Origin: Sorangium cellulosum
GTDB lineage: Bacteria; Myxococcota_A; Polyangia; Polyangiales; Polyangiaceae
Direction: 5' to 3'
Assembly (NCBI RefSeq): GCF_002950945.1
Contig: NZ_CP012673.1
Span: 2,232,001-2,296,000 of the forward strand
DNA length: 64,000 nt
The notes below the pieces were generated by a model. The model was not told the DNA's origin. It did not search any database and worked only from the letters and a program-made list of their open reading frames with translations. The position numbers and the translations under genes were made by a program. Every line of letters begins with the position of its first letter. The stretch's first letter is position 1. Below are positions 3,593-45,390 of the stretch, piece by piece.

Positions 3593-3789
3593 GATTTTTG
3601 CCTCGAACGTAAGGTGATCCAGGCGTCTTATTATGTCATCCCAGCTGGGCCCAACTGCTGCTTCCTCCCTTGCATGCGCCTCGCCTGGAGCCCGCAGCCC
3701 GACCGGCCACCGCAAACGCGCAAAGGAGAAAGGCGCGGTGCGCATGACGCACCTATCCAGGGCAAGGCGAAGGAATACCCTGTGTTAGA

Positions 3790-3816
3790 TGTGAGCGTTC
3801 ACATCCCTTTCGTCAA
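3790..3816 (-). promoter_or_regulatory. LacI-type operator-promoter for the beta-helix gene
   Basis: The core TGTGAGCGTTCACA (3790-3803) is a near-perfect palindrome with a central CG, as LacI-family repressors recognise. On the minus strand a TTGACG (-35-like, 3816-3811) lies 6 nt before the extended ATGTGA half-site. The same geometry occurs at 4055-4083 and 17560-17588. The -10-like hexamer would be CACATC, inside the operator. Confidence 0.75.
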
Positions 3817-4054: not shown

Positions 4055-4083
4055 TTGACACCGACAATGTGAGCGTTCACAAT
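4055..4083 (+). promoter_or_regulatory. LacI-type operator-promoter for the pentose operon
   Basis: TTGACA (4055-4060), a 17-nt spacer and CACAAT (4078-4083) form a sigma-70-like promoter. The operator core TGTGAGCGTTCACA (4068-4081) covers the spacer and -10, so a bound repressor would block polymerase. It reads toward the esterase relic and the operon starting at 4608. Confidence 0.78.
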
Positions 4084-4607: not shown

Positions 4608-5474
4608 ATGAAGCTGTTTCGGTTTGCGGGCAATGGCGGGCCGCGCCTCGGGATCGAGGACGAGCGGGGAGCGCGCCACGACCTCACGGCGGCGTCCCCG
4701 GAGGTGTTCGCGTCCGTCGCCTCGTGGCTCGCCTTGCCCGATCCCCTCGGCGCGGTGCGCGACACGCTCGCGCGCGCCACAGCCCACCCCCTCCCGCCCG
4801 GCGTCACGCTGCTCGCCCCGATCGACGGGCAGGACGTCTGGGCGGCGGGCGTCACCTACGAGCGCTCGCGCAACGCGCGCAAAGAAGAGAGCGCCGGCGG
4901 CGGCGACTTCTACGACCGCGTGTACGACGCCGAGCGCCCGGAGCTGTTCTTCAAGGCAACGCCCCGCCTGGTCGTCGGCCCGGGCGCTCCGGTGCGTGTC
5001 CGGCGCGACTCGATCTGGAACGTGCCAGAGCCGGAGCTCTCGCTCGTCGTGTCCGCGGCGGGCCGCATCGTCGGCTACACGGCCGGCAACGACGTCTCGT
5101 CGCGGTCCATCGAGGGCGACAATCCCCTCTACCTGCCGCAGGCGAAGATCTACGACGGCTGCTGCGCGCTCGGCCCCGCCATCGCGCTCGCGGACGAGCC
5201 CGGGCTGGATCTGCGCGCGCTCTCCATCCAGCTCGCGATCCGGCGCAGGGGCGAGGTGGTGTTCGCGGGGGAGACCTCGACCGCGAGGATGCGGCGCGCG
5301 CCCGAGGAGCTCGTCGCCTACCTCACGCGCGAGCTGAGCTTCCCCGCGGGCGTCGTCCTCATGACCGGGACCGGCATCGTGCCGCCAGACTCGTTCACCC
5401 TGGAGCCTGGCGACCTCGTGGAGATCACGATCCCCGGCGTCGGCACGCTGGCGAACCCGGTATCTCAAGGTTGA
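4608..5474 (+). CDS. FAH-family 2-keto-3-deoxy-pentonate dehydratase
   Basis: Predicted 288-residue cytoplasmic enzyme that dehydrates 2-keto-3-deoxy-D-xylonate/arabinonate to alpha-ketoglutarate semialdehyde (the XylX/KdaD role of the Weimberg pathway). The ATG at 4608 has a GGAGG about 10 nt upstream. Family signs are the metal-binding E-x-E in NVPEPELSLVV (E141, E143), GNDVSSRSIEGDNP with D162, and PLYLPQAKIYDGCCALGP. That last block is characteristic of the sugar-acid dehydratase branch rather than true fumarylacetoacetases. The length matches that branch. It is the first intact gene behind the LacI-type promoter and is followed by the semialdehyde dehydrogenase that would use its product. 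The fold is certain; the exact stereochemistry of the substrate (xylonate or arabinonate) is inferred from context. Confidence 0.85.
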   Translation: MKLFRFAGNGGPRLGIEDERGARHDLTAASPEVFASVASWLALPDPLGAVRDTLARATAHPLPPGVTLLAPIDGQDVWAAGVTYERSRNARKEESAGGGDFYDRVYDAERPELFFKATPRLVVGPGAPVRVRRDSIWNVPEPELSLVVSAAGRIVGYTAGNDVSSRSIEGDNPLYLPQAKIYDGCCALGPAIALADEPGLDLRALSIQLAIRRRGEVVFAGETSTARMRRAPEELVAYLTRELSFPAGVVLMTGTGIVPPDSFTLEPGDLVEITIPGVGTLANPVSQG

Positions 5475-5628: not shown

Positions 5629-7134
5629 ATGGAATTCTTCACCCACAACGCCGCCACCGGGGAGAAACTCGGCGCCTTCCGCGACGCCACCGCCGCCGAG
5701 ATCGACGCCGCCGCCCGCGCCGCCGCAGCGGCAGCGCCGGCCATCGCGGACCTCGCGCCCGAGATGCGCGTCCGGTTCCTGGAGACCGCCGCCGACGAGA
5801 TCATGGCGCTCGGCGACATCCTGATCCAGACCGCACACCGGGAAACCGGGCTGCCCGTCGCCCGCCTGGAAGGCGAACGCGGCCGCACCATCGGCCAGCT
5901 GCGCCTCTTCGCCGCCGTCGTGCGCGAGGGCTCCTGGGTCGATGCCCGGATCGATCCCGCGCTGCCGGACCGCAAGCCGCTCCCGCGCCCCGACGTGCGC
6001 CGCATGCTGCGGCCGATCGGTCCGGTCGCCGTCTTCGGCGCGAGCAATTTCCCCCTCGCGTTCTCCGTTGCCGGCGGCGACACCACCTCCGCCCTGGCCG
6101 CAGGCAACCCGGTCGTGGTCAAGGCCCACCCGGCGCACCCCGGTACCTCCGACCTCGTGGCCTCGGCCCTGCGCTCCGCCGTTCAGAAGGTGAGCCTGCC
6201 CGCGGGCGTGTTCGGCATGGTGCACGGCGCCTCGCCCGAGGTCTCGCTCGGGCTGGTGCGCCACGAGGCCATCCAGGCGGTGGGCTTCACCGGGTCCACA
6301 CGCGCCGGCCGCGCCCTCTGTGACGCCGCCGCCGCCCGCCCGCGGCCGATCCCCGTCTTTGCCGAGATGAGCAGCATCAACCCGCTGGTCGTGCTGCCCG
6401 GCGCGCTGCGCGAGCGCCGCGACGCGATCGCCGAAGGGCTGGTCAACTCGTGCACGCTCGGCGTCGGCCAGTTCTGCACGAAGCCGGGCCTTGTCCTGGG
6501 GTTGGCCTCCCCTGAATGGGATGCGCTCGCGCAAGCGGTCGCCGACCGAGCCCGCGCCATCACGCCCGGTGTGATGCTGCACGCCGGCATCCAGGAGTCG
6601 TTCGACCGCTCCGTGCGGGAGCTGAAAGCAGTGGAGTGGCTGACCGACACCGGCGCGCGTGTCGCTCGCGTCTCCGCCGCCGACTTCGCACGGCAGCCGC
6701 ACCTCGCGCACGAGATCTTCGGGCCGTACACGCTGCTCGTCACCGCTTCGAACCGCGGAGAGTTGCTTCAGCTCCTCGGCGCGCTCGAAGGCCAGCTCAC
6801 CGCGACGCTTCACGGGACCGACGACGATCTCGCCGCCGCCCAGGACCTGGTCGATGTCCTCGGCCGGGTCGCGGGCCGCCTTGTCTTCAACGGCTACCCG
6901 ACGGGCGTGGAGGTGTCACACGCCATGCACCACGGCGGGCCGTATCCAGCAAGCAGCGACGTGCGCTTCACCTCGGTTGGAACCGCGGCCATCCTCCGCT
7001 TCGCACGTCCCGTGTGTTACCAATCGTGTCCGCCCGCGCTGCTCCCGCGGGAGCTGCACGACGAGAATCCGCTCGGGATAGTGCGTCTCGTCGACGGCCG
7101 GGCCACCCGCGACCCCCTTGCGCCCCGCGCATGA
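5629..7134 (+). CDS. Alpha-ketoglutarate semialdehyde dehydrogenase (NADP+)
   Basis: Predicted 501-residue aldehyde dehydrogenase converting 2,5-dioxopentanoate to alpha-ketoglutarate, the last step of the Weimberg pathway. The catalytic Cys283 sits in GQFCTKPG, the general base Glu246 in FAEMSSINP, the oxyanion Asn140 in GASNFP and the cofactor Lys165 in [15 protein letters not shown] and GQFCTKPG are typical of the KGSADH branch found in pentose, hydroxyproline and glucarate catabolism. The gene follows the FAH enzyme and its stop codon overlaps the start of the pentonate dehydratase (ATGA at 7131-7134), so the two are translationally coupled. The family is firm and the substrate follows from the operon. 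Confidence 0.88.
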
Positions 7135-9080
7135 ACCACGACCCGGTGTTCGAGTCCGGCAGCGAGGCGATCTACACCTTGCGCACCACCGCGCCCGGAC
7201 CGTCGGGGCGCCTCCCGCTCGGAGCCGAGCAGCTACGCGCCATGTCCAGCGGCGAGCTGTTCGGCTGGACTCAGAATGCCGGGATGGGGTGGGATCCTGC
7301 GCGCCTGCGCGGGAAGGAGTTCCTCGTGCTCAGCACGCAGGGGGGGATCCGCGCGCCCGACGGCACGCCGATCGCGCTCGGGTATCACACGGGACACTGG
7401 GAGGTGGGGCTGCTCATGGAGGAGGCAGCCCGCACGTTTACGGCCAGCGGAGCCATTCCGTTCGCCGGCTATGTCAGCGATCCGTGCGACGGGCGGACCA
7501 ATGGCACCGTCGGCATGCTCGACAGCCTCGCTTACCGCAATGACGCCGCCATTGTATTCAGAAGGCTGATACGCTCGCTGCCCACCCGCCGAGGCGTGCT
7601 CGGCGTCGCCACCTGCGACAAGGGCCTGCCGGCCATGTTGATGGCGCTCGCCGGAACCCCCGACCTCGCCACGGTGCTCGTGCCGGGAGGCGTCACGCTC
7701 CTCGCGGAGGAGGCGGAGGACACCGCGAAGGTCCAGACCCTCGCGGCGCGTTATGCGCGCGGGGAGGTGAGCCTCGACCACGCCGCCGAGATGGGCTGCC
7801 GCGCCTGCGGTTCCCCCGGCGGCGGCTGCCAGTTCATGGGGACGGCCGCGACGAGCCAGGTGGTGGCGGAGGCGCTCGGCCTCGCCCTCCCGCACGGCGC
7901 GCTCAGCCCGTCGGGCGCCGAGATCTGGCGCGACCTCGCCCGCCGTTCCGCGCACGCGCTCATGGCCCTCGAGCGACGTGGCGTGACCACGCGGGACATC
8001 GTCACCGACGATTCCATTCATAACGCCATGGTGCTGCATGCCGCGGTCGGCGGATCGACCAACCTGGTGCTCCATGTGCCGGCGATCGCCCATGCGGCCG
8101 GGCTTCGACGCCCCACGGTGGACGACTGGACGCGCATCAACGCCCTCGTTCCGCGCCTCGTGGACGTGTTGCCCAACGGGCCGCGGCACTACGCCACGGT
8201 TCAGGTCTTCCTCGCGGGAGGTGTCCCGGAGGTCATGCTCCATCTGCGCGAGCTTGGCCTGCTGCGGCTCGGTGCGTGTACCGTCAGCGGCCTCACCCTG
8301 GGCGAGAACCTCGAGTGGTGGGAACGCAGCGAACGGCGCCGGCGCCTGCGCGACAAACTACAGCAGCTGGACGGCATCGACCCGGACGACGTGATCATGT
8401 CCGCCGGGAAGGCACGGGAGCGCGGCCTCACCAGCACGGTGACCTTCTTGCGCGGCAACCTCGCGCCCGAGGGAGCGCTCGTGAAGAGCACCGCGATCGC
8501 TCCCCAGGTGATCGGACCGGACGGCGTTTATCTGCACGAAGGACCTGCGCGTGTGTTCGGCAGCGAGCACGCGGCGATCGAGGCGATCAAGACGGGCGCC
8601 GTGCAACCGGGTGACGTGATGGTGCTGATCGGCATCGGCCCCGGTATCGGGATGCCGGAGACCTACCAGATCACCTCCGCCCTCAAGCACGTGAAGGACG
8701 GGTACCGTATCGCCCTGGTCACGGACGGTCGTTTCTCCGGCGTCTCCACCGGGGCGTGCATCGGCCACGTCAGCCCCGAGGCGTGGGCGGGTGGACCCAT
8801 CGGCCGCGTGCGCGACGGCGACCGCATCAGGCTCCGGATCGACACGCGCACGCTGGAGGGGACGGTGGACGCCGTGGGCGTGGATGCCGGCGGTCTTGCC
8901 GCCCGTCTGCCCAATCCAGCCCTTCAACCCGACGGCCGGGTGAACGCGGATACGCGGCTCTGGGCTGCGCTCCAGGATGCCAGCGGCGGCACCTGGGGTG
9001 GGTGCGTCTATGACGCGGAGCGCATCATCGGGCTCCTCGGTCGCGCCATCGCGGCTGAGCGGAGCTCCTTTGGTGCATAA
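7131..9080 (+). CDS. YjhG/YagF-type pentonate (xylonate) dehydratase
   Basis: Predicted 649-residue Fe-S dehydratase of the IlvD/EDD superfamily, converting D-xylonate (or another aldonate) to its 2-keto-3-deoxy form. It resembles E. coli YjhG/YagF closely: [13 protein letters not shown] near the N-terminus, [30 protein letters not shown], then [22 protein letters not shown] and [19 protein letters not shown]. The three Cys-containing segments are the expected Fe-S cluster ligands. Length fits the YjhG branch (about 650) and not IlvD (about 560-610). Its start overlaps the preceding stop. Together with the FAH enzyme and the semialdehyde dehydrogenase it gives the route aldonate to alpha-ketoglutarate. 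Confidence 0.9.
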
Positions 9081-9140: not shown

Positions 9141-10364
9141 ATGTCGATTGGCCAGTTGAAGTCTCGTGGACCGGCGCGGCGCGCAGCGGCGGTGTTGGGC
9201 TGCGCGCTCGGGCTCTGGGCCCTCTCTGCCTGCAAAGGTAAGCCCGACAGCGCTCAGGCCGCAGGTGGCTCCGCCAGCGCCGCGGCCGAGCAGGCGCCGA
9301 GCGGGCAGGGGCCCAAGATCGTGGAAGGGCCCGGCTTCAACCCCGAGTGCTTCGCGCCGTGGAAGAAGGACACCAAGTATTTGCAGTGGACGGCGCGAAA
9401 GCCGCCGTTCCGCCTCGCGCTCGTCAACGGCTACGTCGGTAACGCCTGGCGCATCCAGATGGTCAAGACGGCCAAGGCCTTCGCCAAGGATCCGGCCATC
9501 GCGCCGCTGCTCAAGGAGTTCAAGGTGGTGTCGACCGGCACCGACGTCGCGGCCCAGCTCGGCGCGATCGAGGACTTCATCAACCAGGGCTTCGACGGCA
9601 TCGCCACGCTCGCCGTCAGCCCCGAGGGCTTCGATCGCGTGATCCGGCTCGCTGACAAGAAGGACGTCATCCTGGTTCCGTTCGACAACGTGCTCGACAC
9701 GGACAAGGTGATGCAGGTCAACGAGGACCAGCTGGCGATGGGGCGAAAGTGGGGCGAGTTCCTCGACAAGCAGCTCGGTGGGAAGGGCAAGGTGCTCGAG
9801 GTCCGCGGCCTGCAGGGCAACTCCGTCGATCGCGACCGCCACGTCGGCTTCCGCGAGGTCATGGAAGCGCCGGGGAAGAGCTACACCATCGTGGAGGTGG
9901 TCGGCAGCTGGGACGACGGCAAGGCGCAGAAGGCGGTGGCCGACGCGCTGGCCGTGCACCGCCAGTTCGACGCGCTCTTCGCGCAGGGCGGCTCGACGGG
10001 CGCCGTCCGCGCGCTGCTCGACGCCGGCCACAAGCCGATCCCGGTCGCCACCGAGGCTGAGAACGGCGTGCGCAAGCTGATCGCGAAGCACCACGAACAG
10101 GGCATGAAGGGCCTGTCGCTCGGCCAGTCGCCGGGCCTCGCGGCCATCGCGATGAAGGCGGCGCTCGAGGGCCTGCAAGGCAAGGTGCTGCCGCAGATGA
10201 TCTCCGTGCCGATCCCCGCCGCCGATCACACCACGCTGAAGGACGGCGAGAACTTCTTCTCCCAGCTCTCCGACAACTTCTTCACGCCCAACGAGTTCCC
10301 GCCCTGCGGGGTCAACATCTCGGGCGTGAAGATCATGAACGAGTCGGAATCCGACGTAAAGTAG
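9141..10364 (+). CDS. Sugar ABC transporter substrate-binding lipoprotein
   Basis: Predicted 407-residue periplasmic sugar-binding protein of the ribose/xylose (Peripla_BP_4) type. The N-terminus has a signal peptide and lipobox L-S-A-C at about residue 31, then a Gly/Ala linker. The binding domain begins at about residue 75 with FRLALVNGYVGNAWRIQM and shows the two-lobe pattern (AIEDFINQGFDGIATLAVSP, VILVPFDNVLD, VEVVGSWDDGKAQKAVADAL). It lies 60 bp after the dehydratase gene and directly before the ATPase and two permease genes. The ligand is probably a pentose or its oligomer, judged from the operon only. The stop codon sits in an 11-bp tandem repeat. Confidence 0.88.
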   Translation: MSIGQLKSRGPARRAAAVLGCALGLWALSACKGKPDSAQAAGGSASAAAEQAPSGQGPKIVEGPGFNPECFAPWKKDTKYLQWTARKPPFRLALVNGYVGNAWRIQMVKTAKAFAKDPAIAPLLKEFKVVSTGTDVAAQLGAIEDFINQGFDGIATLAVSPEGFDRVIRLADKKDVILVPFDNVLDTDKVMQVNEDQLAMGRKWGEFLDKQLGGKGKVLEVRGLQGNSVDRDRHVGFREVMEAPGKSYTIVEVVGSWDDGKAQKAVADALAVHRQFDALFAQGGSTGAVRALLDAGHKPIPVATEAENGVRKLIAKHHEQGMKGLSLGQSPGLAAIAMKAALEGLQGKVLPQMISVPIPAADHTTLKDGENFFSQLSDNFFTPNEFPPCGVNISGVKIMNESESDVK

Positions 10365-10397
10365 ACGTAAAGTAGACGTGAAGTGGACGTGAAGTAG
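10354..10397. repeat. Four 11-bp direct repeats at a stop codon
   Basis: Four units of ACGTRAAGTRG in a row span the 3' end of the binding-protein gene and the gap before the ATPase gene. The unit length is not a multiple of three, so its TAG codons fall in successive reading frames. Confidence 0.85.
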
Positions 10398-10420
10398 CGC
10401 CCCGCAGGCGCCCTAGCATC

Positions 10421-11989
10421 ATGACCGAACCGGTGAGCCCTCCGCTCCTCCAGCTCCGGGCCGTCTCCAAGCACTACGGCGGAGTCACCGCCCTGAGCGG
10501 CGTCGACTTCGCCTGCGAGGCGGGGAAGGTGCATGCGATCCTGGGCGAGAACGGCGCGGGCAAGAGCACCCTGATCAAGATCATCGGCGGCGTGGTCGAG
10601 CCGAGCGCCGGGGAGCTCTTGCTCCACGGCGAGCCGGTCCGGTTCGACCACCCGATCGAGGCGAACGCCGCCGGCATCGTCTGCGTCTTTCAGGAGCTGT
10701 CCCTGATGCCGACGCTGACCGTGGCCGAGAACATCGGTATCACCATGCCGACGAGCCGCCTGGGGCTCTTCGATCGCAAGGCGCAGGTCCGCAGGGCCGA
10801 GGAGCTCCTGGCGCGCGTCGGCTGCGAGGGCGTGAACCCGAACGCCTGGGTGAGCGACCTGCCGCTCTCGCGCCGCCAGATGGTCGAGATCGCGAAGGCG
10901 CTCGGCAAGGACCCGCGGCTGCTCATCCTGGACGAGGCCACCTCCGCGCTGACCAGCAGCGACGTCAAGAAGGTCTACGCGCTCCTGGCCGAGCTCAAGG
11001 CTCAGGGCGTCGGCATGCTCTACATCTCGCACCGCATGCACGAGATCAAGGAGCTCGCGGACGTGATGTCGGTCTTCCGCAACGGTCGGCACATCGAGAC
11101 CTTCGCCAAGGGCCAGCACAGCGACGACCGGATCGTGGAGCTCATGATCGGCCGTGACATGGGTCACGTCTTCCCGCCGAAGCCGGCGGCGCGCAGCTTC
11201 CCGGCGACGCTGCTCGAGGTGAACGACCTGAGCTGGGAGCAGCAGCTCGAGAACGTGTCGTTCAAGCTCGGCAAGGGCGAGATCCTCGGCATCGGCGGGC
11301 TCGACGGCCAGGGCCAGCGCGAGCTGCTGCTCGGCTTGTTCGGTGTGCTCAAGGATCTGCGCGGCGAGATCAAGATCGACGGCAGGCCGGTCAAGCTGAC
11401 GAGCCCGCGAAAGGCCAAGGACCGTGCGCACGGCATCGCCCTCGTGCCCGAAGACCGAAAGACCGAAGGCCTGATGCTGCCGATGGCCATCGCCGCGAAC
11501 ATGTCGCTGGCCTCGCTCGACAAGTTCACGCGCGGCGTGGTGCTCGACCGCCGGCGCGAGGCCGGGTGCATCGACGAGATGGTGCGCCGCATCCAGATCA
11601 AGATCGGCTCGCTCAACGACCCGGTGTCGTCGTTGTCCGGGGGCAACCAGCAGAAGGTCGTGCTGGCCAAGTGGCTGATGACGGAGCCGCGGCTGCTGAT
11701 GCTCAACGACCCCACCCGCGGCATCGACGTCGGCACGAAGCAGGAGATCTACCAGCTGCTCCGCGAGCTTTCGGACGCCGGCACGTCCATCCTCTTCTAC
11801 ACCACGGACTACGACGAGCTGATCGGCTGCTGCGACCGCGTGCTCGTCCTCTACCAGAACCGCGTGCAGGGCGAGCTCGTGGGGCCCGACATCACCGAAA
11901 AGAACATCCTGGGCCTCGCCCTCGGCCTGCGCGGCGGGCCTGAGCGCGCGAAGCCCGAAGCCGAGCGCGCGCCCCGAGAGGCACGATGA
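10421..11989 (+). CDS. Sugar ABC transporter ATP-binding protein (RbsA/XylG type)
   Basis: Predicted 522-residue double-domain ATPase. NBD1 has Walker A GENGAGKST (about residue 45), the signature region SRRQMVEIAKAL and Walker B LLILDEATSAL. NBD2 lacks a canonical Walker A (GGLDGQGQREL instead), as is usual for this family, but keeps LSGGNQQKVVLAKWL. Its Walker B reads LLMLNDPTRGID: the usual D-E pair is N-D, so NBD2 probably does not hydrolyse ATP well. The start follows the binding-protein gene by 56 bp, and the stop overlaps the next start (ATGA, 11986-11989). Confidence 0.92.
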   Translation: MTEPVSPPLLQLRAVSKHYGGVTALSGVDFACEAGKVHAILGENGAGKSTLIKIIGGVVEPSAGELLLHGEPVRFDHPIEANAAGIVCVFQELSLMPTLTVAENIGITMPTSRLGLFDRKAQVRRAEELLARVGCEGVNPNAWVSDLPLSRRQMVEIAKALGKDPRLLILDEATSALTSSDVKKVYALLAELKAQGVGMLYISHRMHEIKELADVMSVFRNGRHIETFAKGQHSDDRIVELMIGRDMGHVFPPKPAARSFPATLLEVNDLSWEQQLENVSFKLGKGEILGIGGLDGQGQRELLLGLFGVLKDLRGEIKIDGRPVKLTSPRKAKDRAHGIALVPEDRKTEGLMLPMAIAANMSLASLDKFTRGVVLDRRREAGCIDEMVRRIQIKIGSLNDPVSSLSGGNQQKVVLAKWLMTEPRLLMLNDPTRGIDVGTKQEIYQLLRELSDAGTSILFYTTDYDELIGCCDRVLVLYQNRVQGELVGPDITEKNILGLALGLRGGPERAKPEAERAPREAR

Positions 11990-13041
11990 AGGACTGGAAG
12001 CTCCGCCTGCGCCAGAACCAGGGCCTGCTCGTGGCCGTCGGTCTGTGCATCTTCTTCTACGGGCTCTACTCGCTGTCTCATCCCAAGGGCTTCAGCGCGT
12101 CGCTGGTGGGGCAGAACGCCAACGAGTCGTTCGTGCTGGTGGCTGCGGCCATGGCCCAGACGATCCCCGTGCTGACCGGCGGCCTGGATCTGTCCGTGGG
12201 TGCGGTGATCACGCTCGTCAACTGCCTGGCCTCGCACGTCCTTGCCGGCGGCGCGCTCGCGAATTTCCTGGGCATCCTGCTGTGCCTGGCCGCGGGGACG
12301 GCGGCGGGCCTGCTCAACGGCTGCCTCGTCGTGTACGGCCGCCTGCAACCGATCATCGCCACCCTGGCCTCGGGCACGATCTTCATCGGCATCGCGCTGT
12401 TCCTGAGACCGACGCCCGGCGGCCAGGTCGATGGCGATCTGGCGTTCGCGGCGACCTTCGATCTCAACGAGCTGCTGCAGGCCGCGGGCGCCGCCCCCCT
12501 CGACGGCGCGCTGGGCTTCGTCGGCAAGATCCCGTCGCCCGCGATCTGGATGGCGCTGCTCGCGCTGCTCTGGACCTACTACCGCCGCACCCGCTACGGC
12601 CTCGGCGCTTACGCCGTCGGCGCGTCGCAGGAGGCCGCGTACATGTCGGGCGTCCGCATCAAACGCGTCAAGCTGGCCGCGTACACGCTGTCGGGGTTCT
12701 TCGCCAGCGTCGGCGGCCTCTACCTCGCGCTGCAGACGACGTCGGGCAACGCCGACATCCCACAAGCCGGCTCCTACACGCTGAACTCCATCGCCTGCGT
12801 CGTGATCGGGGGCTCCTCGCTGTACGGAGGTATCGGCGGCGCCATAGGATCACTCTTCGGCGCGCTGGTGCTCCGCTCCGTCGCCTTCAACTTCCGCGTC
12901 CTCGACGAGGGCTCGGCGCTCGGCTTCCTCGCCAACCCCCTCTACCAGCCGCTGTTCGAGGGCCTCATCCTGCTCGCGGCCGTCTGCCTCGGCGCGCTCT
13001 GGGTCGTCCGCGTCAAGAACCGGCTGCACGTCTTCAGGTGA
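11986..13041 (+). CDS. Sugar ABC transporter permease 1 (RbsC/XylH family)
   Basis: Predicted 351-residue inner-membrane permease of the BPD_transp_2 family with about 8-10 hydrophobic segments. Family motifs include LTGGLDLSVGAVITL near residue 60 and GGSSLYGGIGGAIGSLFGAL near residue 275. It is translationally coupled to the ATPase (overlap ATGA) and followed after 5 bp by a second, clearly different permease. Two distinct permeases with one double ATPase is the arrangement of YtfQRT-YjfF-type (galactofuranose) transporters, in contrast to the single XylH of the xylose system. Confidence 0.9.
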   Translation: MKDWKLRLRQNQGLLVAVGLCIFFYGLYSLSHPKGFSASLVGQNANESFVLVAAAMAQTIPVLTGGLDLSVGAVITLVNCLASHVLAGGALANFLGILLCLAAGTAAGLLNGCLVVYGRLQPIIATLASGTIFIGIALFLRPTPGGQVDGDLAFAATFDLNELLQAAGAAPLDGALGFVGKIPSPAIWMALLALLWTYYRRTRYGLGAYAVGASQEAAYMSGVRIKRVKLAAYTLSGFFASVGGLYLALQTTSGNADIPQAGSYTLNSIACVVIGGSSLYGGIGGAIGSLFGALVLRSVAFNFRVLDEGSALGFLANPLYQPLFEGLILLAAVCLGALWVVRVKNRLHVFR

Positions 13042-13046
13042 GCTCG

Positions 13047-14015
13047 ATGCAACAGCACCCCTCCCTCAAGGGCCGTTTCGGCGAGATCGACAGGCCGACC
13101 TGGTACACGCTGCTGTCGATCGGCGTCGTCCTCGTGATCGGCTCGATCGGCACGCTGGTCACCCAGGGCACGCTGAGCTTCCTGAGCCCGCACTACATCC
13201 TGCAACAGCTGCAGATCGCCGCCTTCCTGGGCGTGGCCGCCACGGGCATGATGATCGTGATCCTGCTCGGTCACATCGATCTCTCGCTGCCGTGGGTGCT
13301 CACCTCGAGCGCCATGCTGGCCGCAGGGCTCGGCGGCTGGGCCGCGTTGCCCTGCGGCCTGGCCATCGGCGCCGCCGCGGGTCTCTTGAACGGGCTCGGC
13401 GTCGCCTACCTCCGCGTGCCCTCGATGATCTTCACGCTGGGCACGAACACCGTGCTTCAGGGGCTGATGGTGGTCTACACCGGCGGCTTCGCTCCGCGCA
13501 GCGAGGCGCCAGCGTGGATGGAGGTCCTGGCCGTGGGCAAGACGCTCTCCATCCCGAACTCGCTGTTCGTCTGGATCCTGGTCGGCGTCGCCGGCACCTT
13601 CGTGCTGAAGAAGACCGCGCTCGGCCGCTACATCTATGCCGTGGGCAACCAGGAGCAGGCCGCCTATCTTTCGGGCGTCAGGACGCACCTCGTGCTGATC
13701 GGCGCCTTCGTGATGTGCGGCGTGTGCTCCGCCATCACCGGCATGCTGCTCGCGGGCTTTTCGCACAAGGCCTACCAGGCCATGGGCAACGACTACCTCA
13801 TGCCGGCCATCGCCGCGGTGGTGATCGGCGGAACCAACATCATGGGCGGACGCGGGACGTACCTCGGCACCGTCCTCGGCACGATCCTGATCGTGCTGCT
13901 CCAGAGCATGCTCAGCGTGCTGCAGATGCCCGAGGCCGGCCGCCAGATCATCTACGGCGCCGTGATCATCGCCATGCTGCTGGTCTACGGCCGACAACAT
14001 CAGGAGGGACGGTGA
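13047..14015 (+). CDS. Sugar ABC transporter permease 2 (RbsC/XylH family)
   Basis: Predicted 322-residue permease, paralogous to the preceding gene but only distantly similar. The ATG at 13047 is preceded by a short GAGCTC and lies 5 bp after the previous stop; the frame is open far upstream but that part is the shadow of permease 1. Motifs are MMIVILLGHIDLSLPWVL (about residue 65) and VIGGTNIMGGRGTYLGTVLG (about residue 260). The second is the family's conserved cytoplasmic loop that contacts the ATPase. It is the last gene of the operon and converges on the DUF1552 gene after 58 bp. Confidence 0.9.
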   Translation: MQQHPSLKGRFGEIDRPTWYTLLSIGVVLVIGSIGTLVTQGTLSFLSPHYILQQLQIAAFLGVAATGMMIVILLGHIDLSLPWVLTSSAMLAAGLGGWAALPCGLAIGAAAGLLNGLGVAYLRVPSMIFTLGTNTVLQGLMVVYTGGFAPRSEAPAWMEVLAVGKTLSIPNSLFVWILVGVAGTFVLKKTALGRYIYAVGNQEQAAYLSGVRTHLVLIGAFVMCGVCSAITGMLLAGFSHKAYQAMGNDYLMPAIAAVVIGGTNIMGGRGTYLGTVLGTILIVLLQSMLSVLQMPEAGRQIIYGAVIIAMLLVYGRQHQEGR

Positions 14016-14073: not shown

Positions 14074-15504
14074 TCAGGCGAGCATGCCGTCGATGGGCCC
14101 GGAGCCCTGACCCTCACCGAAGTTCTCCGTCCACTCGGTCTTGTCCCGAACGGCGGCGGCGATGAGGCCGTTGAAGAGGCGGTTGTTCGTGACGTTTCCG
14201 GCGTCGATGTACTCCCCCTGCTTCAGGTAGCCGCCGCCGTTTCCGGCGATGATCGTCGGCACGTTGCGGAAGCTGTGCGACGGGCCGTCCGCGACGTGGT
14301 TCGTCCACAGGATGATGGATTTGTCGAACAGGCCGCGCGCCTTGAAGTGATCGAGGCCGTGGAGCAGCGTCTGCATGCGGAGCACGTCGATCTCGGCGTG
14401 TGCTTGCTCGGCCGTCGGGTTGTTGCCCGAAGCCGCGTCCGATTGCACACGGTGGCTGATGTGGTGGAAGGGCCAGCCGAGCCCCTCGTTCGCCGGCACA
14501 TTATACTTCGTATGATCCGTGCCGTCGCCGTGCTGCAGCGTCGCCACGCGGTTGAAGTTGCAGGCGAACGCCAGCGCCACGAGCTCGAGGTGGAGCTTCG
14601 CGACGTCTTCTATCATGCCGTCCGTCTTGAACGCGAAGCCGCTCTCGAGCGCCTCGAGCTCCGACGTCGCGAGGCCCGCCTGGCTGCAGGCCGCGCCCAT
14701 CCCGCCCATCGTGACCTCGGTGTCGCGGATGGAGTCGAAATGCTGCTGGAGGCGCTGCTTGTCGGCGGAGCTCAGCGCCGACATGCGCATCAGGCTGTTC
14801 AGCTCCTCGCCCACGAAGTCGTTCACGCTCTTGCGGCTGCGGATGAGCTCCTCCGCGAGCGACCCGCCGCTGTCACCGCCGCTGCTCGAGAGGCCGACGA
14901 GCTTGGAGTAGAGGGTGTACGGGTTGTCGTCCGCCGGGCGCACCTGCCCGGCACCACCGCCCTTGAAAGAGATGCGCTCGGCGATGTACCCGTTCCTGCG
15001 GTTGCCGGCGTAGAGCGTGAGCGGATCGGCGCCGCCCTCGTTCACCAGCTGGGCGATCACCATGTCCGCGGACTCGCCGGTCGAGGCCGCGGTCTTGCCG
15101 CCGCCCTGCGCCGGGCGCGCGGTGAGCGCCTGACACAGGCCCTGCGCGTGGCCGCAGTTGCTGGGGCCCCCCATCGGGAAGTTGATGCCGCGGATGAACA
15201 GCAGGTTCGCGGCGTGAGGCGCGAGCACGTGCGTCGCCTTGCCCGTCATGGCGGCGAGCCCGCTGGTCGTGAGCGGGCCAGTCTCGTCCGGGAAGAACCG
15301 GTTGCCCACCACGCCGCACGCCGCCACGATGTAGAGGCTGAACACGGGCGGGTTGTCCGCGGCCCAGGCGGAGCGCGACGGCAGCCCCTCGAGGAACGGA
15401 AGGGCGATGGCGACGCCGCCGGCGCGCAGGAACGCGCGCCGATTGATGCCAGGCCGGCGCGCCACGCGCGGATGAGTGAGGTTCGTTACGATCTTGGAGT
15501 TCAC
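14074..15504 (-). CDS. DUF1552 protein, Tat-exported (operator-linked copy)
   Basis: Predicted 476-residue exported protein. The start is the GTG at 15504, which overlaps the stop of the DUF1592 gene (GTGA) and places a twin-arginine signal NRRAFLRAGG at residues 21-30, followed by a hydrophobic stretch and a SAWA cleavage site. Family blocks seen include FLEGLPSRSAWA, RGINFPMGG and ILWTNHVADGPSHSFRNVP near the C-terminus. DUF1552 proteins occur beside DUF1592/DUF1588 cytochrome-like lipoproteins in myxobacteria and planctomycetes; their reaction is unknown. Here the pair is preceded by the same LacI-type operator as the pentose operon, so a role in sugar use outside the cytoplasm is inferred. 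A second pair is at 43758-47007. Confidence 0.85.
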   Translation of the reverse strand: MNSKIVTNLTHPRVARRPGINRRAFLRAGGVAIALPFLEGLPSRSAWAADNPPVFSLYIVAACGVVGNRFFPDETGPLTTSGLAAMTGKATHVLAPHAANLLFIRGINFPMGGPSNCGHAQGLCQALTARPAQGGGKTAASTGESADMVIAQLVNEGGADPLTLYAGNRRNGYIAERISFKGGGAGQVRPADDNPYTLYSKLVGLSSSGGDSGGSLAEELIRSRKSVNDFVGEELNSLMRMSALSSADKQRLQQHFDSIRDTEVTMGGMGAACSQAGLATSELEALESGFAFKTDGMIEDVAKLHLELVALAFACNFNRVATLQHGDGTDHTKYNVPANEGLGWPFHHISHRVQSDAASGNNPTAEQAHAEIDVLRMQTLLHGLDHFKARGLFDKSIILWTNHVADGPSHSFRNVPTIIAGNGGGYLKQGEYIDAGNVTNNRLFNGLIAAAVRDKTEWTENFGEGQGSGPIDGMLA

Positions 15505-17165
15505 AGCGGGCCTCCTGCGCGAGTCCGGAATGCTTCGCTCTTCACGAGCTCGATCATCATCTCTTTCACCGAGCCGCTTTTGCCGCGGCTCACCGCGGCG
15601 AGCGTCTCGACGAGCGGCAAGTCCGACGGGACGACGTCGCGCTGAAGCGCGAAGCTCGCGAGCTTCTTGGCGTAGCAGAGGTGAGCCTGCTCGCCCTCCG
15701 CCATGTGGTGCATCAGCTCGCCGGCGTCCGCGAACGACTTGGATCCTTCGGTGAAGGCGTAGATGCCGCTGCTGTCGATCGGCAAGCCTCCGTTCTCCTC
15801 GTCCCGATATTGTCCCATGCCGTCGAAGTGCTCGAAAGCGAAGCCGACGGGATTGATGAGCGCGTTGTGGCACCTGCCACCGCAGCCGGAGGTGAGCTGC
15901 GTGATGCGCTCACGATTCGTCTGCCCGGGCTTGAGAGGCGGGACCGGCGGGATGTCGGGGGCCGGCGCGCCGAGCGGCGTGCACAGCACGTCGAGGTTGA
16001 TGCTGACGCCGCGGTGGATCGAGTCCGACTCGTCGTTCAGAGCGTTCAGCGTCAGGTAAGGGAGCTGCGAGAAGAAGCCGATGCGATCGGGACCGAGGTC
16101 TCGCTCCACGAGGCCTCTGCCGCTCTGCGTCAGGCCGTAGAGGCTCGCCATCCCCGGCCCCACGAAGCCCTTGGTGGACGTGAGGATGTCTTTGACACCG
16201 AGGCCCTCGGTGAAGATCTTTTCGAAGAACAGGTACGCGCTCTCCTCGTACTCCGCGTTCAACGATTCGTCGTAGCTCGGCACGCCGACCTTGCTGATCG
16301 TGGCGTAGCGATCGAAGTGGAGCAGCTCGCCATGGAAGTACCGCATGGCCTTGACCGCCGTGGGCTCCTCCAGCATGGACTCGGCGACCGCGGCGATCGC
16401 CTCCGGCGTCGTGAGCGTGGACGCCTTGTCGAGCAGCTCGTCGTCCGGCGCGGCGTTGCGCAGCCAGAGCGAGAGCTTCGCCGCGATCTCGTAGCCGTCG
16501 AGCGGCTTGCGACGTTCGCCGAGCTCCGTGCGGTAGAGGAAGTGCGGCGACTGGAGCAGCGTCCGGATCACGAGCTGCGCGCCCTTGGCGAACGTGCTCT
16601 TCGTTCCGGACATCGCCGCGCCGGTCTCGAAGAGCGCCGTGTACCTGGCGACCTCGGCGTCCTTCAGCGGACGGCGATACGCACGGCGCCCCACGGTCTC
16701 GATGAAGCCGGCCGCGTCGGTGCCCGGGTAAACCCTGGCGAGCGCCGCGTCCGAGGCCGTCACCTCCTCGGCGAGCGCCTCCGCCGCCGATTGGTAGTCG
16801 CTCCACGAGCGCTGGTTCACGCTCAGCAGGAGCTCGTTGTTGGTGAAATCCGTCGTGCCGGCGACGGGCTTCTCGAACGTGTCGGACAGCGACGAAGGAG
16901 CGTCGAGGTTCAGCACCACCTGCACGCTGCTCGCCCACTGCGAGTTCGTGAGGCGCACGAGCCGGTGGTACTGCGGCGCGCCCGGCATGTCGATGCCGCG
17001 CGCCACGCCGCCGGTGTCGCCCGGCACGGGGCCGTCGCTCCCCTCCGGATCGCCCAGGGAGCCCGTGCAGGCCGCGAGCAGGAGCGCCGTGACGCAGAGC
17101 CCCGCGCCGAGCACCCGCCTGCCGCGCGGCAAGCCGGTTATCGAAAAAGACGGTGGGATCATCAT
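15501..17165 (-). CDS. DUF1592/DUF1588 lipoprotein (operator-linked copy)
   Basis: Predicted 554-residue exported lipoprotein. The ATG at 17165 follows CAGGAG by 4 nt and gives a signal ending in L-A-A-C at about residue 32. The usual domain order is visible: a DUF1587-like start (HRLVRLTNSQW), DUF1595 (RAYRRPLKDAEVARY), DUF1592 (SPHFLYRTELG, GYEIAAKLSLWL), DUF1588 (RGVSINLDVLCTPLGAP) and DUF1585 (CYAKKLASFALQR). The place where relatives carry a haem-type CxxCH reads SGCGGRCHN (about residue 425). That is C-x3-CH, so covalent haem attachment is uncertain. The second copy in this window keeps CASCH. It is coupled to DUF1552 by a GTGA overlap. Confidence 0.86.
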   Translation of the reverse strand: MMIPPSFSITGLPRGRRVLGAGLCVTALLLAACTGSLGDPEGSDGPVPGDTGGVARGIDMPGAPQYHRLVRLTNSQWASSVQVVLNLDAPSSLSDTFEKPVAGTTDFTNNELLLSVNQRSWSDYQSAAEALAEEVTASDAALARVYPGTDAAGFIETVGRRAYRRPLKDAEVARYTALFETGAAMSGTKSTFAKGAQLVIRTLLQSPHFLYRTELGERRKPLDGYEIAAKLSLWLRNAAPDDELLDKASTLTTPEAIAAVAESMLEEPTAVKAMRYFHGELLHFDRYATISKVGVPSYDESLNAEYEESAYLFFEKIFTEGLGVKDILTSTKGFVGPGMASLYGLTQSGRGLVERDLGPDRIGFFSQLPYLTLNALNDESDSIHRGVSINLDVLCTPLGAPAPDIPPVPPLKPGQTNRERITQLTSGCGGRCHNALINPVGFAFEHFDGMGQYRDEENGGLPIDSSGIYAFTEGSKSFADAGELMHHMAEGEQAHLCYAKKLASFALQRDVVPSDLPLVETLAAVSRGKSGSVKEMMIELVKSEAFRTRAGGPL

Positions 17166-17559
17166 TGTCTCCTGGCTGACCTCTAGTGGCTGAGCAGTTC
17201 CCTTGGTATGACCAGCGATGCAACGACCATCGTGCTCGCTGAAGCGGGGCGCGTAGTCCCGGTCGATGGCACGCTCGAGGATCTCGCCGTAACGGGCGAA
17301 CGGAAACAGGCCCCGGACGCGATCGTGGGAGAAGGAAGCCCACATGTCCGGAGCTCACGACAGCCGTCGAACAAGCGAGGCCTGTCGTGTTCTCTGGCGG
17401 AACACGCCTGGCAGGACGCCGAGCACCATCGATCAGCGATCGCTTCCGCGACGACGGATCAAACGCGATTGTTGCCGAACTCGTTCAGATGACGAAGGGG
17501 TCTCGGTGCGCACGGCGAGACCACGATCGAGGACGAAGCAAAAGGGGACCCTACGGGCC
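17166..17559 (-). other. Long leader upstream of the DUF1592 gene
   Basis: About 390 bp lie between the DUF1592 start and the operator-promoter at 17560-17588. No convincing gene is seen on either strand; several short open frames look random. If the promoter is used, the transcript has an unusually long untranslated leader, or a small gene was lost here. Confidence 0.4.
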
Positions 17560-17588
17560 AATGTGAACGATCACATTTCGGGTGTCAA
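17560..17588 (-). promoter_or_regulatory. LacI-type operator-promoter upstream of DUF1592-DUF1552
   Basis: On the minus strand TTGACA (17588-17583), a 17-nt spacer and CACATT enclose the operator core TGTGATCGTTCACA (17575-17562). The 6-nt gap between TTGACA and ATGTGA is identical to the two elements at 3790-3816 and 4055-4083. It points toward the DUF1592 gene. Confidence 0.72.
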
Positions 17589-17816: not shown

Positions 17817-17897
17817 GAACCGCCAAGGCGCCAAGGACGCCAAGAAGGAGAAGAAAATATCTTGGCGCCCTTGGCGCCCTTGGCGCCTTGGCGGTTC
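17817..17897. repeat. 81-bp CCGCCAAGG inverted repeat
   Basis: The outer 20 nt on each side (beginning GAACCGCCAAGG) are perfect reverse complements. The arms continue imperfectly as copies of CGCCAAGG around an AT-rich loop. It lies 34 bp beyond the lactonase stop codon and could act as a strong transcription end or be a dispersed REP-like element. A separate 15-bp near-palindrome, ACGGGTTGAACCCGT, lies at about 17783-17797. Confidence 0.85.
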
Positions 17898-17930
17898 ATC
17901 TCTCGTTCCTCAACGTGATCGGTGTTCTAG

Positions 17931-18851
17931 CTAACGCCCGGCGCCGCGGGTGTTCAGGTAGACCGCGTACAGCGAGGTCGTGCCGCAGATGAACAGGCGA
18001 TTGCGTTTGGCGCCGCCGAAGCAGACATTGGACACCGTCTCGGGGATCAGCACCTTGCCGAGCAGCGCGCCGTCGCTCGCGTGGCAGTGCACGCCGTCGC
18101 CGGCCGACAGCCACAGGTTGCCGCGCACGTCGACGCGGAAGCCGTCGTACACGCCCACCGGGCAGGTCGCGAACACCTCGCCGCCGGTCAGCCTGCCATT
18201 GTCGTCGACGCGGAACTTGCGCACGTGGTGCGGGCCGTCCTTCACGTGCGTCGCGCCGGTGTCGGCGATGTACAGCAGCGACTCGTCCGGCGAGAAGGCG
18301 AGACCGTTGGGCTGCACGAAGTCGTCCGCGACGGCCGTCAGCGCGCCGGCGGCCGGGTCGACGCGGTAGACGCGCTGCGCGCCCTGCTCGTTCGGCGACG
18401 CGTCGCCTTCGTAGTCGCTGTCGATGCCGTAGCTCGGGTCGGTGAACCAGACGCTGCCGTCGGACTTCACGACCACGTCGTTCGGCGAGTTCAGCCGCTT
18501 GCCCTCGAAGTGCGACGCGAGCACCGTGCGCGAGCCGTCGTGCTCGGTGCGCGAGATGCAGCGGCCGCGGTGCTCGCAGGAGACGAGGCGGCCCTCTAGG
18601 TCGACCGTGTGGCCGTTGGTGTTCCTCGCGGGCTGGCGGAACACCGAGACCGAGCCGTCGGTCTCGTCCCAGCGCAGCATGCGGTCGTTCGGGATGTCCG
18701 ACCAGACGAGGTAGCGCCCCGCTGCGAACCACGCCGGCCCCTCCGCCCAGCGGCAGCCGGTGTACAGCTTCTCGACGTGCACGTGCGGGAGCGCGAGCTC
18801 GCGGAAGCGCGGGTCGATCACCTCGAAGCTCGGGGTCAGCTCGATGACCAT
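17931..18851 (-). CDS. SMP-30/gluconolactonase-family sugar lactonase
   Basis: Predicted 306-residue cytoplasmic six-bladed beta-propeller lactonase, expected to open xylono- or arabinonolactone to the aldonate used by the YjhG-type dehydratase. The ATG at 18851 has a strong GGAGGAG 6-7 nt upstream; the longer open frame lacks a signal peptide. Family features are GCRWAEGPAWF with the metal-binding Glu, RLNSPNDVVVKSDGSVWFTD, the metal-binding Asn in FVQPNGLAFSPDE and YDGFRVDVRGNLW. The metal ligands Glu, Asn and Asp are all present. It belongs functionally to the pentose pathway although it is separated from the operon by the DUF1552/1592 pair. No operator of the LacI type was found before it. 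Confidence 0.88.
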   Translation of the reverse strand: MVIELTPSFEVIDPRFRELALPHVHVEKLYTGCRWAEGPAWFAAGRYLVWSDIPNDRMLRWDETDGSVSVFRQPARNTNGHTVDLEGRLVSCEHRGRCISRTEHDGSRTVLASHFEGKRLNSPNDVVVKSDGSVWFTDPSYGIDSDYEGDASPNEQGAQRVYRVDPAAGALTAVADDFVQPNGLAFSPDESLLYIADTGATHVKDGPHHVRKFRVDDNGRLTGGEVFATCPVGVYDGFRVDVRGNLWLSAGDGVHCHASDGALLGKVLIPETVSNVCFGGAKRNRLFICGTTSLYAVYLNTRGAGR

Positions 18852-18951
18852 CGTGTTCTCCTCCTTCAATCCAAGTGCCTGCGGCCGCGGCGCCGCGGCC
18901 ATTGACCAGCAGCCTCGCGCCGGAAAGTCAAGCCACCCCCGGGGTGGCGCG

Positions 18952-20296: not shown

Positions 20297-20407
20297 ATGA
20301 CCTTGGTCACCGCAGGCTCAGGTCTCATCGGCTCGCACGCACGTGAATTGCCACGTGCGTCCTTTGACGACAATTTCGTGTACCCCTGCCGAGCGAAGCA
20401 GCCATGA
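20297..20407 (+). pseudogene. NmrA/SDR-type Rossmann N-terminal stub
   Basis: A 36-codon frame with an AGAGGG upstream starts MTLVTAGSGLIGSHAREL, the first strand and glycine-rich loop (GxxGxxG) of NmrA/atypical SDR oxidoreductases. Similarity ends after about 18 residues. Its stop codon overlaps the start of the Fe-S subunit gene at 20404, so it could be translated as a leader peptide coupled to that operon. Confidence 0.45.
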
Positions 20408-20864
20408 TGAAGATCGACATCAACGGATCCGTTCGCGAGATCGACGTCTCCCCAGACATGCCCCTGCTGTGGGTGCTCCGCGATGTGCTGGGGTTGCCCG
20501 GCACCAAGTTCGGCTGTGGCATGGCCCAATGCGGCGCCTGCACAGTCCACCTCGACGGCAACCCCACCCGCTCCTGCGTCCTGCCGGTGTCGAGCGTCGG
20601 GGCGCGCAAGGTGACGACGATCGAGGGCCTGTCGAGCGACGCATCGCACCCGGTGCAGCGGGCGTGGGCCGAGGCCGATGTCGTGCAGTGCGGGTACTGC
20701 CAGTCCGGTCAGATCATGACCGCAGCGGCCTTGCTCGAGAAGAAGCCCGATCCAGGCGATTCCGACATCGATGCTGCGATGTCGCCCCACCTGTGTCGGT
20801 GTGGGACCTATGTTCGCATCCGCGAAGCGGTGCATCTCGCGTCGCGGCTCAAGCGAGGTGAGCG

Positions 20865-20868
<4 letters not shown>
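20404..20868 (+). CDS. [2Fe-2S] subunit of a molybdenum hydroxylase (IorA-like)
   Basis: Predicted 154-residue iron-sulfur subunit of the xanthine oxidase family, isoquinoline 1-oxidoreductase alpha-like. The plant-type cluster ligands are C38, C43, C46 and C58 ([17 protein letters not shown]). The second cluster uses C96, C99, C131 and C133 (QCGYCQSG and LCRCGTY). It carries no signal of its own and is probably exported together with the Tat-tagged large subunit. The next gene starts within its stop codon (ATGA at 20865-20868). No FAD subunit is present, as is usual for IorAB-type enzymes that pass electrons to a cytochrome c. Confidence 0.92.
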
Positions 20869-22997
<2,129 letters not shown>

Positions 22998-23007
22998 GGG
23001 ATTGACG

Positions 23008-23601
23008 ATGATCCGATCCTGCCTTGCTCTCGCCTTGTTCCTCGCCGCGTGCGGGGAAGAGACCGCCGGGGGGTCGCACGACCCCTCCTCTCCCGGCAGC
23101 CACGAAGCCGGCCTCGCCGCGTTCGAAACCGTGCGCGGCGTCCTCCAGCACCCCCGCTGTCAGAACTGCCACCCCGCCGGCGACGTGCCTTTACAGGGCA
23201 ACGACAGCCGTCCTCACAAGCAGCTCGTGCAGCGCGGGCCCACCGGCCACGGCATGGCCGGCGCCGAGTGCACGGCGTGCCACGGGCCGGCGAACCCGCC
23301 CGACAGCTACGGCGCTGCGGTTCCGCCCGGCGTCGTGAGCGGCTGGCACATGCCGCCGCCCGAGCTGCCGATGGTGTTCGTCGGTCTCGCCCCGGGCGCG
23401 CTGTGCGAGCAGATCAAGGATCCAGCGCGCAACGGCGGCAAGGACATGGCGGCGCTGCGCGCCCACCTCCACGACGACCCGCTCGTGCTCTGGGGTTGGG
23501 ACCCTGGCTTTGGCCGCGAACCCGTGGCGACACCCCACGCCGAGTTCATCGCTGCGTGGGAGACCTGGGCCCGCGCCGGCGCGCCGTGCCCGGGTGGGTG
23601 A
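23008..23601 (+). CDS. Di-haem cytochrome c-like lipoprotein, partner of the Mo hydroxylase
   Basis: Predicted 197-residue exported lipoprotein with lipobox L-A-A-C (about residue 15) and two haem-type motifs, CQNCH (about residue 50) and CTACH (about 90). The ATG at 23008 is 7 nt from AGGGG; a TTG at 23002 is in frame but too close to it. The same three-gene order (Fe-S, Moco, cytochrome c) is known for periplasmic isoquinoline-oxidoreductase-type enzymes, where the cytochrome carries electrons to the respiratory chain. It converges with the PAP2 gene 13 bp downstream. Confidence 0.82.
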   Translation: MIRSCLALALFLAACGEETAGGSHDPSSPGSHEAGLAAFETVRGVLQHPRCQNCHPAGDVPLQGNDSRPHKQLVQRGPTGHGMAGAECTACHGPANPPDSYGAAVPPGVVSGWHMPPPELPMVFVGLAPGALCEQIKDPARNGGKDMAALRAHLHDDPLVLWGWDPGFGREPVATPHAEFIAAWETWARAGAPCPGG

Positions 23602-45338: not shown

Positions 45339-45390
45339 GTGCGCATCGCTCCTTCGTGCCTCGTCCTGTGCAGAAACAACCCGCGCGGCC

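Follow-up and report, generated by a model that had tools for sequence, protein, structure and literature searches.

A DUF1592-DUF1552 protein pair and the arabinoxylan and pentose regulon of Sorangium cellulosum

In this study, a 64,000-nucleotide stretch of the 14.56-Mb genome of Sorangium cellulosum (G000:C1:2232001-2296000, hereafter the window) was analyzed together with five congener genomes (G001-G005; the window's own genome is G000). The window holds a pair of genes for exported proteins, a DUF1592-family lipoprotein and a DUF1552 protein of the twin-arginine translocation (Tat) type. The sequence of its promoter and operator makes it nearly certain that the pair belongs to a pentose regulon. 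We give about an even chance to the fuller reading, in which the pair is an extracytoplasmic two-component system, a heme-c carrier with a DUF1552 catalyst, expressed with arabinoxylan and pentose genes under one LacI-type repressor. L-numbers (e.g. L033) label individual loci, with coordinates counted within each locus; the features of the window are collected in Table 1.

The operator and its regulon

An earlier note on this DNA had claimed that the pair shares its promoter-operator design with a Weimberg-type operon in the window. This was borne out: both have exactly the design TTGACA-N6-ATGTGANCGNTCACAT, in which the -10 box falls within the operator. The pair's 18-bp site recurs with 2-3 mismatches before this operon and before a GH141/beta-helix gene, where 0 recurrences were expected (100 shuffles), and TTGAC sits 12 nucleotides (nt) before the site in all three operators. 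At no more than one mismatch, ATGTGANCGNTCACAT was found at 35 places in G000, and its reversed control at none. Among 34 strict sites aligned as promoters, TTGAC occurred unchanged upstream of 31, and in 30 of these the distance was exactly 12 nt. The TTGACA -35 box lies 17 nt before CACA[AT]T, which falls within the operator; thus, the repressor, when bound, would lie over the -10 box. The -35 box is missing from a few of the 35 sites, which may be chance occurrences or sites of another kind.

The genes near these sites form an arabinoxylan and pentose regulon. The arabinose genes encode a LacI regulator, a kinase of the FGGY family (araB), an L-arabinose isomerase (araA) that scores 794 bits where the cut-off is 622, and an AraD-type aldolase; a sugar ABC transporter comes next. 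Among the glycoside hydrolases (GH) are GH43 proteins with carbohydrate-binding module (CBM) family 6, two GH10 proteins, and GH62, GH127, GH31 and GH59-like proteins; the esterases are one SASA esterase and several that resemble PETases, polyhydroxybutyrate (PHB) esterases or S9 proteins. A PfkB kinase, an aldolase-like protein, a zinc dehydrogenase, a mannitol-dehydrogenase-type protein, a major facilitator superfamily (MFS) transporter and two Gfo/Idh/MocA oxidoreductases are also encoded there, and some first genes behind operators gave no Pfam match (e.g. L024:6025-6771 and L036:10065-11075). The operator was present in all five congeners and in 0 of 33 genomes outside the genus covered by the same search; a separate look found it in one other Polyangiaceae genome (L091). 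Like LacI-family sugar regulons, this one has a palindromic operator with a central CG that overlaps the promoter, and a regulator with LacI domain architecture. Unlike them, its operator fronts arabinose, xylose and hemicellulase genes scattered over the 14.6-Mb genome, and many of its promoters appear to be copied from araB.

The candidate repressor of these sites, judged from its sequence, is the LacI protein L033:7718-8710. Its top-scoring NCBIfam model, PRK09526, reaches 287 bits where the cut-off is 340, and E. coli LacI is among its nearest solved relatives. Eight close relatives occur in five of the six genomes, all with the recognition helix VSYQTVSRV except that of G004, where the helix is VSHQTVSRV. 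G004 has 16 operators that combine a GTTA half-site with a -35 box, against 0 in the other five genomes. Repressor and operator therefore covary: the natural change of Y to H in the helix accompanies a half-site change from GTGA to GTTA, which is the pattern expected if the LacI protein binds the operators. E. coli LacI has Y at that helix position and a TGTGAGCG half-site.

The DUF1592-DUF1552 pair is a preferred target of the regulon. G000 has 24 DUF1592-domain matches and 23 DUF1552 matches. The six genomes together gave 134 DUF1592 matches, of which 118 were full length and were counted, the short ones being dropped. A strand-matched operator lies within 2 kb upstream of 22 of these 118 genes, against 0.29 expected and 0/118 on the 3' side; by genome, the operator-bearing genes are 4/21 (G000), 1/12 (G001), 4/25 (G002), 5/17 (G003), 5/25 (G004) and 3/18 (G005). 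In our reading of a tree of 53 proteins, the operator-bearing members fall into seven clades and require nine changes, each of them forced by well-supported branches; the tree leaves out a regulon member split between L081 and L082 and includes L072:18091, whose operator is in L086. With up to five operator-bearing pairs per genome from seven clades, the pair looks like a diversified component rather than one pentose oxidase. In G003, G004 and G005, the operator is also found before the orthologous pair, with the sequence ATGTTAACGGTAACAT in G004; the site closest to the G002 orthologue fronts two upstream genes.

Two further arrangements were seen. A second pair in the window (43758-46986, - strand), of the CX2CH type, has no operator in G000, and its G004 orthologue (L088) has one together with a short araB-like relic open reading frame (ORF) at 7357-8121. 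At L072:2545-4476 (- strand), a single 643-residue ORF combines a DUF1592 match with the HxxSH region of DUF1552. It resembles a pair fused by a deletion and still lies behind an operator at 4887.

Many regulon promoters continue past the operator with the araB leader and the first araB codons. Among 69 promoters scored (from the window, L024-L039 and L070-L089; five are araB itself), 41 reached a score of at least 30 against the L033 araB stretch, compared with 1 of 529 other gene starts. The coding part alone gave 28/69 against 1/561 controls. The promoter of the window pair scores 45; its alignment with araB contains indels, begins in the -35 region and reaches some 100 nt into araB. The lipoprotein start lies about 375 nt beyond the -10 box, and this long leader opens with the apparent araB remnant. 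The relic is absent from some pairs; that of L038 scores 14. These sequences suggest that the regulon grew as the araB promoter was copied along with the beginning of araB itself. A conserved RNA structure was rejected as the explanation of the shared leader, being not significant (z -1.35 against column shuffles); similarity to araB explains the leader instead. A narrow literature search returned no papers on promoter copying and carries little weight as to prior work.

Domains, motifs and predicted folds of the pair

The earlier note had described the pair as a heme-lipoprotein-like chain with a Tat-exported chain, and the sequence features agree. The lipoprotein carries PF07626, PF07637, PF07631, PF07627 and PF07624 in order on one chain, all above the Pfam cut-offs, with the lipobox LLLAAC read directly from the sequence. 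Its gene overlaps that of the DUF1552 protein by 4 nt on the same strand. The DUF1552 protein matches PF07586 (HXXSHH) with 174.6 bits against a cut-off of 30, and its twin-arginine start reads NRRAFLR. The heme motif of the lipoprotein, CGGRCH, departs from the canonical CXXCH of c-type cytochromes and is of the form CX3CH. Among 127 DUF1592 relatives, 23 have CX3CH, 99 have CX2CH and five have neither, so that some form is kept in 122/127. The CX3CH variant is found from Polyangiaceae to Sandaracinaceae.

An AlphaFold2 model of DUF1552, built with 64 sequences (predicted local distance difference test, pLDDT, 84.8), matches sulfatases and phosphatases over residues 51-476, with Z up to 17.8 over 273-278 residues and root-mean-square deviations of 3.6 to 4.1; Foldseek assigned it to the alkaline phosphatase/sulfatase superfamily at E 5.3e-05. 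DUF1552 is thus predicted to have the fold of this superfamily and not that of a dehydrogenase. Unlike its members, it has an invariant histidine at the presumed nucleophile position and seems to lack the first acidic metal ligand. H119, H351 and H410 are present in 64/64 sequences and H347 in 62/64, suggesting from the model that the four form a histidine metal site. Residue 63, placed at the first acidic ligand, is N in 42/64 sequences and C in 9/64. H119 begins the helix after the second strand, in the motif H-x2-G-x4-L-T-[GA]. The sulfatase motif is C-x-P-x-R-x3-L-T-G, and from this likeness and the position in the model H119 would take the place of the nucleophile. For the DUF1592 model (pLDDT 88.5), Foldseek found no solved structure at E <= 0.001 and VIA-align 2 gave Z of at most 4.7, which does not by itself prove a new fold. 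A sequence search of the PDB returned no convincing relatives of either protein.

In the parts consulted of the open-licence PubMed Central papers found, no reaction or function is given for DUF1592, DUF1552 or their sister domains. Sections of He et al. (2017; PMC5615132) describe PSCyt3 genes of Verrucomicrobia that adjoin an uncharacterized gene family; their function is called unknown there, and a role in carbohydrate use is suspected. The planctomycete-type PSCyt3/PSD genes of that paper share the domains of the window DUF1592 protein and are likewise paired with another family. Unlike many of their products, the window protein has no N-terminal PSCyt1 heme domain, and a concrete regulon is assigned to it here.

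A second likeness concerns plant polysaccharides. According to the portions consulted of Branch et al. (2021; PMC8981238), Cbp2D of Cellvibrio japonicus has a DUF1587 domain and a CxxCH-bearing module, X132; excerpts of PMC12542752 report that Cbp2D and Cbp2E are important when insoluble cellulose is the growth substrate, and those of PMC6004670 list, for a community that degrades lignocellulose, a DUF1592 protein of Cellvibrio that carries CBM2. X132 is described in PMC10916295, in the passages available, as lacking a characterized homologue. The window lipoprotein resembles X132 of Cbp2D and of Teredinibacter TERTU_2913/TERTU_3803 (PMC8981238, PMC10916295) in being exported, in having DUF1587 followed by a c-type heme motif and in its link to plant polysaccharides, a likeness drawn from the shared DUF1587 annotation in PMC8981238. 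Unlike the X132 proteins, it is a lipoprotein with CX3CH in place of CX2CH and a separate DUF1552 partner, and has no CBM or X183.

Possible roles of the pair

Under the preferred reading, a pentose, probably L-arabinose, would cause the repressor to leave the operator that overlaps the -10 box, and the lipoprotein and the Tat-exported DUF1552 protein would then act on arabinoxylan, or on fragments of it, outside the cytoplasm. DUF1552 would be the likely catalytic partner, with an alkaline-phosphatase fold in which nucleophile and acidic ligands are seemingly replaced and a histidine metal site (H119, H347, H351 and H410) is formed; DUF1592, with its CX3CH, would be the likely heme-c electron carrier. 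This control may have been acquired through a copy of the araB promoter that, together with the leader and first codons, ended up ahead of the pair. Of the earlier note's proposal, we prefer this part, a role outside the cytoplasm that concerns arabinoxylan or its fragments and is probably redox in nature, at roughly even chances. A bolder version, speculative and unlikely in our judgment, would make DUF1552-DUF1592 an unrecognized class of extracytoplasmic redox enzymes, in which a sulfatase-like scaffold, its active site remade as a histidine metal site, works with a heme-c carrier whose fold matches no solved one to trim or cleave arabinoxylan oxidatively in bacteria lacking AA10 lytic polysaccharide monooxygenases (LPMOs), and linkage-specific pairs are recruited singly through araB promoter copies.

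The earlier note had gone further and suggested that the pair, by oxidizing pentoses outside the cytoplasm, stands in for the dehydrogenase missing from the Weimberg-type operon. The pair is exported and co-regulated with that operon, in which, as the note had said, Pfam finds no pentose dehydrogenase gene. The operon also has the dehydratase and semialdehyde dehydrogenase-type genes described, and the lactonase counted with them lies outside it and has no operator of its own in G000. The note had named a co-regulated cytoplasmic pentose dehydrogenase elsewhere as the first half of what would speak against its idea, and a search of the genome gave two such candidates. These are the Gfo/Idh proteins L032:14465-15544, whose gene stands first behind an operator and heads a sugar ABC operon, and L039:8893-9933, behind a separate operator. 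No signal peptide was seen in either, so the "missing" enzyme has cytoplasmic candidates. The best NCBIfam model of L039:8893-9933 is the D-xylose 1-dehydrogenase Gfo6 (NF041392; 134 bits, below the 350-bit cut-off), and its PDB relatives include aldose oxidoreductases; similar proteins are also encoded downstream of operators in G003 (L078) and in G002 (L074), where the gene diverges from a DUF1592-DUF1552 pair. From sequence, these two proteins are better candidates for the first Weimberg step than the pair. Sugar ABC importers also belong to the regulon, and so does araBAD, which means that arabinose need not be oxidized. Several diverged pairs occur per regulon, more than a single pentose oxidase would call for, and the predicted phosphatase-superfamily fold of DUF1552 also points away from a dehydrogenase. 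It is therefore unlikely that the pair catalyzes the first Weimberg step, and replacement of the missing dehydrogenase by oxidation of free pentoses outside the cytoplasm is not supported and very unlikely.

The predicted fold, at Z 17.8, and the several esterases in the regulon would suit DUF1552 as a hydrolase of esters, sulfates or phosphates on decorated hemicellulose, with DUF1592 as a structural or docking partner and no redox chemistry. We consider this unlikely, since the sulfatase nucleophile and first acidic ligand were not found where expected and the heme-c-like motif is so widely kept among DUF1592 relatives. The pair might instead be a general electron carrier or serve redox protection outside the cytoplasm during hemicellulose breakdown, for example as a donor to other enzymes, with no sugar substrate of its own. 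X183 of Cbp2D, which also has X132, can reduce LPMOs according to the parts consulted of PMC8981238; no AA10 LPMO (PF03067) was found in 5/5 Sorangium genomes searched, which led us to reject LPMO electron donation as the main role, and for the Teredinibacter relatives the results in the sections seen of PMC10916295 appear inconsistent with it. This role is accordingly quite unlikely. Finally, copies of the araB promoter cassette might land widely and be kept by chance, as relics at most regulon promoters would allow. Accidental co-regulation of this kind is improbable, because the other identified targets are mostly hemicellulose and pentose genes, DUF1592 genes bear the operator far above expectation, and the window pair keeps it in three congeners.

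The neighborhoods of relatives outside Sorangium bear on the preferred reading in both directions. With a DUF1552 query, 80 loci were fetched of at least 353 relatives, and among these loci, pairs occur in myxobacteria, Verrucomicrobia, Planctomycetes, Acidobacteria and others. In L091 (Polyangiaceae, DUF1552 56% identical), the pair lies beside two GH54 arabinofuranosidases, LacI, araA and araD, and the same promoter-operator precedes the first GH54 gene and araA. A GH5 protein lies beside the pair in L122, PETase-like esterases near it in L092 and a glucose/sorbosone dehydrogenase-type protein in L094.

Several points weigh against the preferred reading. In L091, no operator lies directly upstream of the pair itself. 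Outside Myxococcota, with up to four neighbors taken per locus, no glycoside hydrolase family is among the 25 commonest of 134 neighbor proteins; the commonest are DUF1501 and ankyrin repeats, with six each. Thus, the carbohydrate link is firm for the Sorangium/Polyangiaceae branch and unsupported for the family as a whole. Within the six Sorangium genomes, 96 of the 118 DUF1592 genes have no operator, and if araB promoter copies land randomly, chance could account for part of the co-regulation. A DUF1552 profile gave no alignment with ten Sorangium sulfatases and no significant match to a single sulfatase, and the mapping of histidine onto the nucleophile is drawn from motif likeness and position in the model. 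Redox activity, heme binding and the substrate of the pair are predictions from sequence and models.

Other features of the window and significance

A long inverted repeat (ccgccaaggcgcc...ggcgccttggcgg) at 17817-17899, which lies between the pair's promoter and the lactonase gene, is perhaps a terminator or a repeat element. Further along, at 20404-23601 (+ strand), lie genes for an exported-looking molybdenum hydroxylase with a 2Fe-2S subunit and a molybdenum cofactor (MoCo) subunit that has a twin-arginine start. They end with a lipoprotein containing two CxxCH motifs and may encode an exported aldehyde oxidoreductase; the regulon operator was not found at these genes.

Table 1. Location of the pair, its control region and the neighboring genes in the window
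Feature	Position	Strand	Basis or remark
DUF1592-family lipoprotein (DUF1587-1595-1592-1588-1585)	15501..17183	-	Pfam; heme-c-like motif CGGRCH (CX3CH); AlphaFold2 pLDDT 88.5
DUF1552 (HXXSHH) Tat-type exported protein	14074..15504	-	Pfam; predicted alkaline-phosphatase-superfamily fold
Operator AATGTGATCGTTCACATT of the pair	17560..17577	-	Distal half contains the -10 box CACATT (17560-17565)
-35 box TTGACA of the pair	17583..17588	-	17 nt from the -10 box
Leader of the pair, apparent decayed copy of araB leader and first codons, with indels	17410..17559	-	Alignment to L033 araB; relic GTG at 17511-17513
Operator of the Weimberg-type operon	4066..4083	+	TTGACA 12 nt upstream
Operator of the GH141/beta-helix gene	3788..3805	-	Recurrence of the pair's site
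Exported GH141-insertion/beta-helix protein, regulon member	1193..3745	-	Pfam
FAA-hydrolase family protein (likely 2-keto-3-deoxy-pentonate dehydratase)	4608..5474	+	Pfam; NCBIfam below cut-offs
Aldehyde dehydrogenase (likely alpha-ketoglutarate semialdehyde dehydrogenase)	5629..7134	+	Pfam
YjhG/YagF D-xylonate dehydratase	7131..9080	+	NCBIfam TIGR03432, 1046.6 bits against a cut-off of 808.15
Sugar ABC transporter	9141..14015	+	Binding lipoprotein by Pfam Peripla_BP_4; ATPase and two permeases assigned from ORF sequences
SGL/SMP-30 family lactonase	17931..18869	-	Pfam; no signal peptide seen

In sum, the regulon link is a first lead on the role of a widespread exported protein pair. The predicted inducer (a pentose or arabinoxylan), the candidate repressor gene and the list of co-regulated pairs make the function testable in culturable Sorangium, for example strain So0157-2. 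The araB promoter relics offer a clear case of a large regulon that would have expanded through copies of a single promoter and the gene start attached to it. A phosphatase-like scaffold with a histidine center beside a heme protein, as predicted here, would be unusual chemistry.

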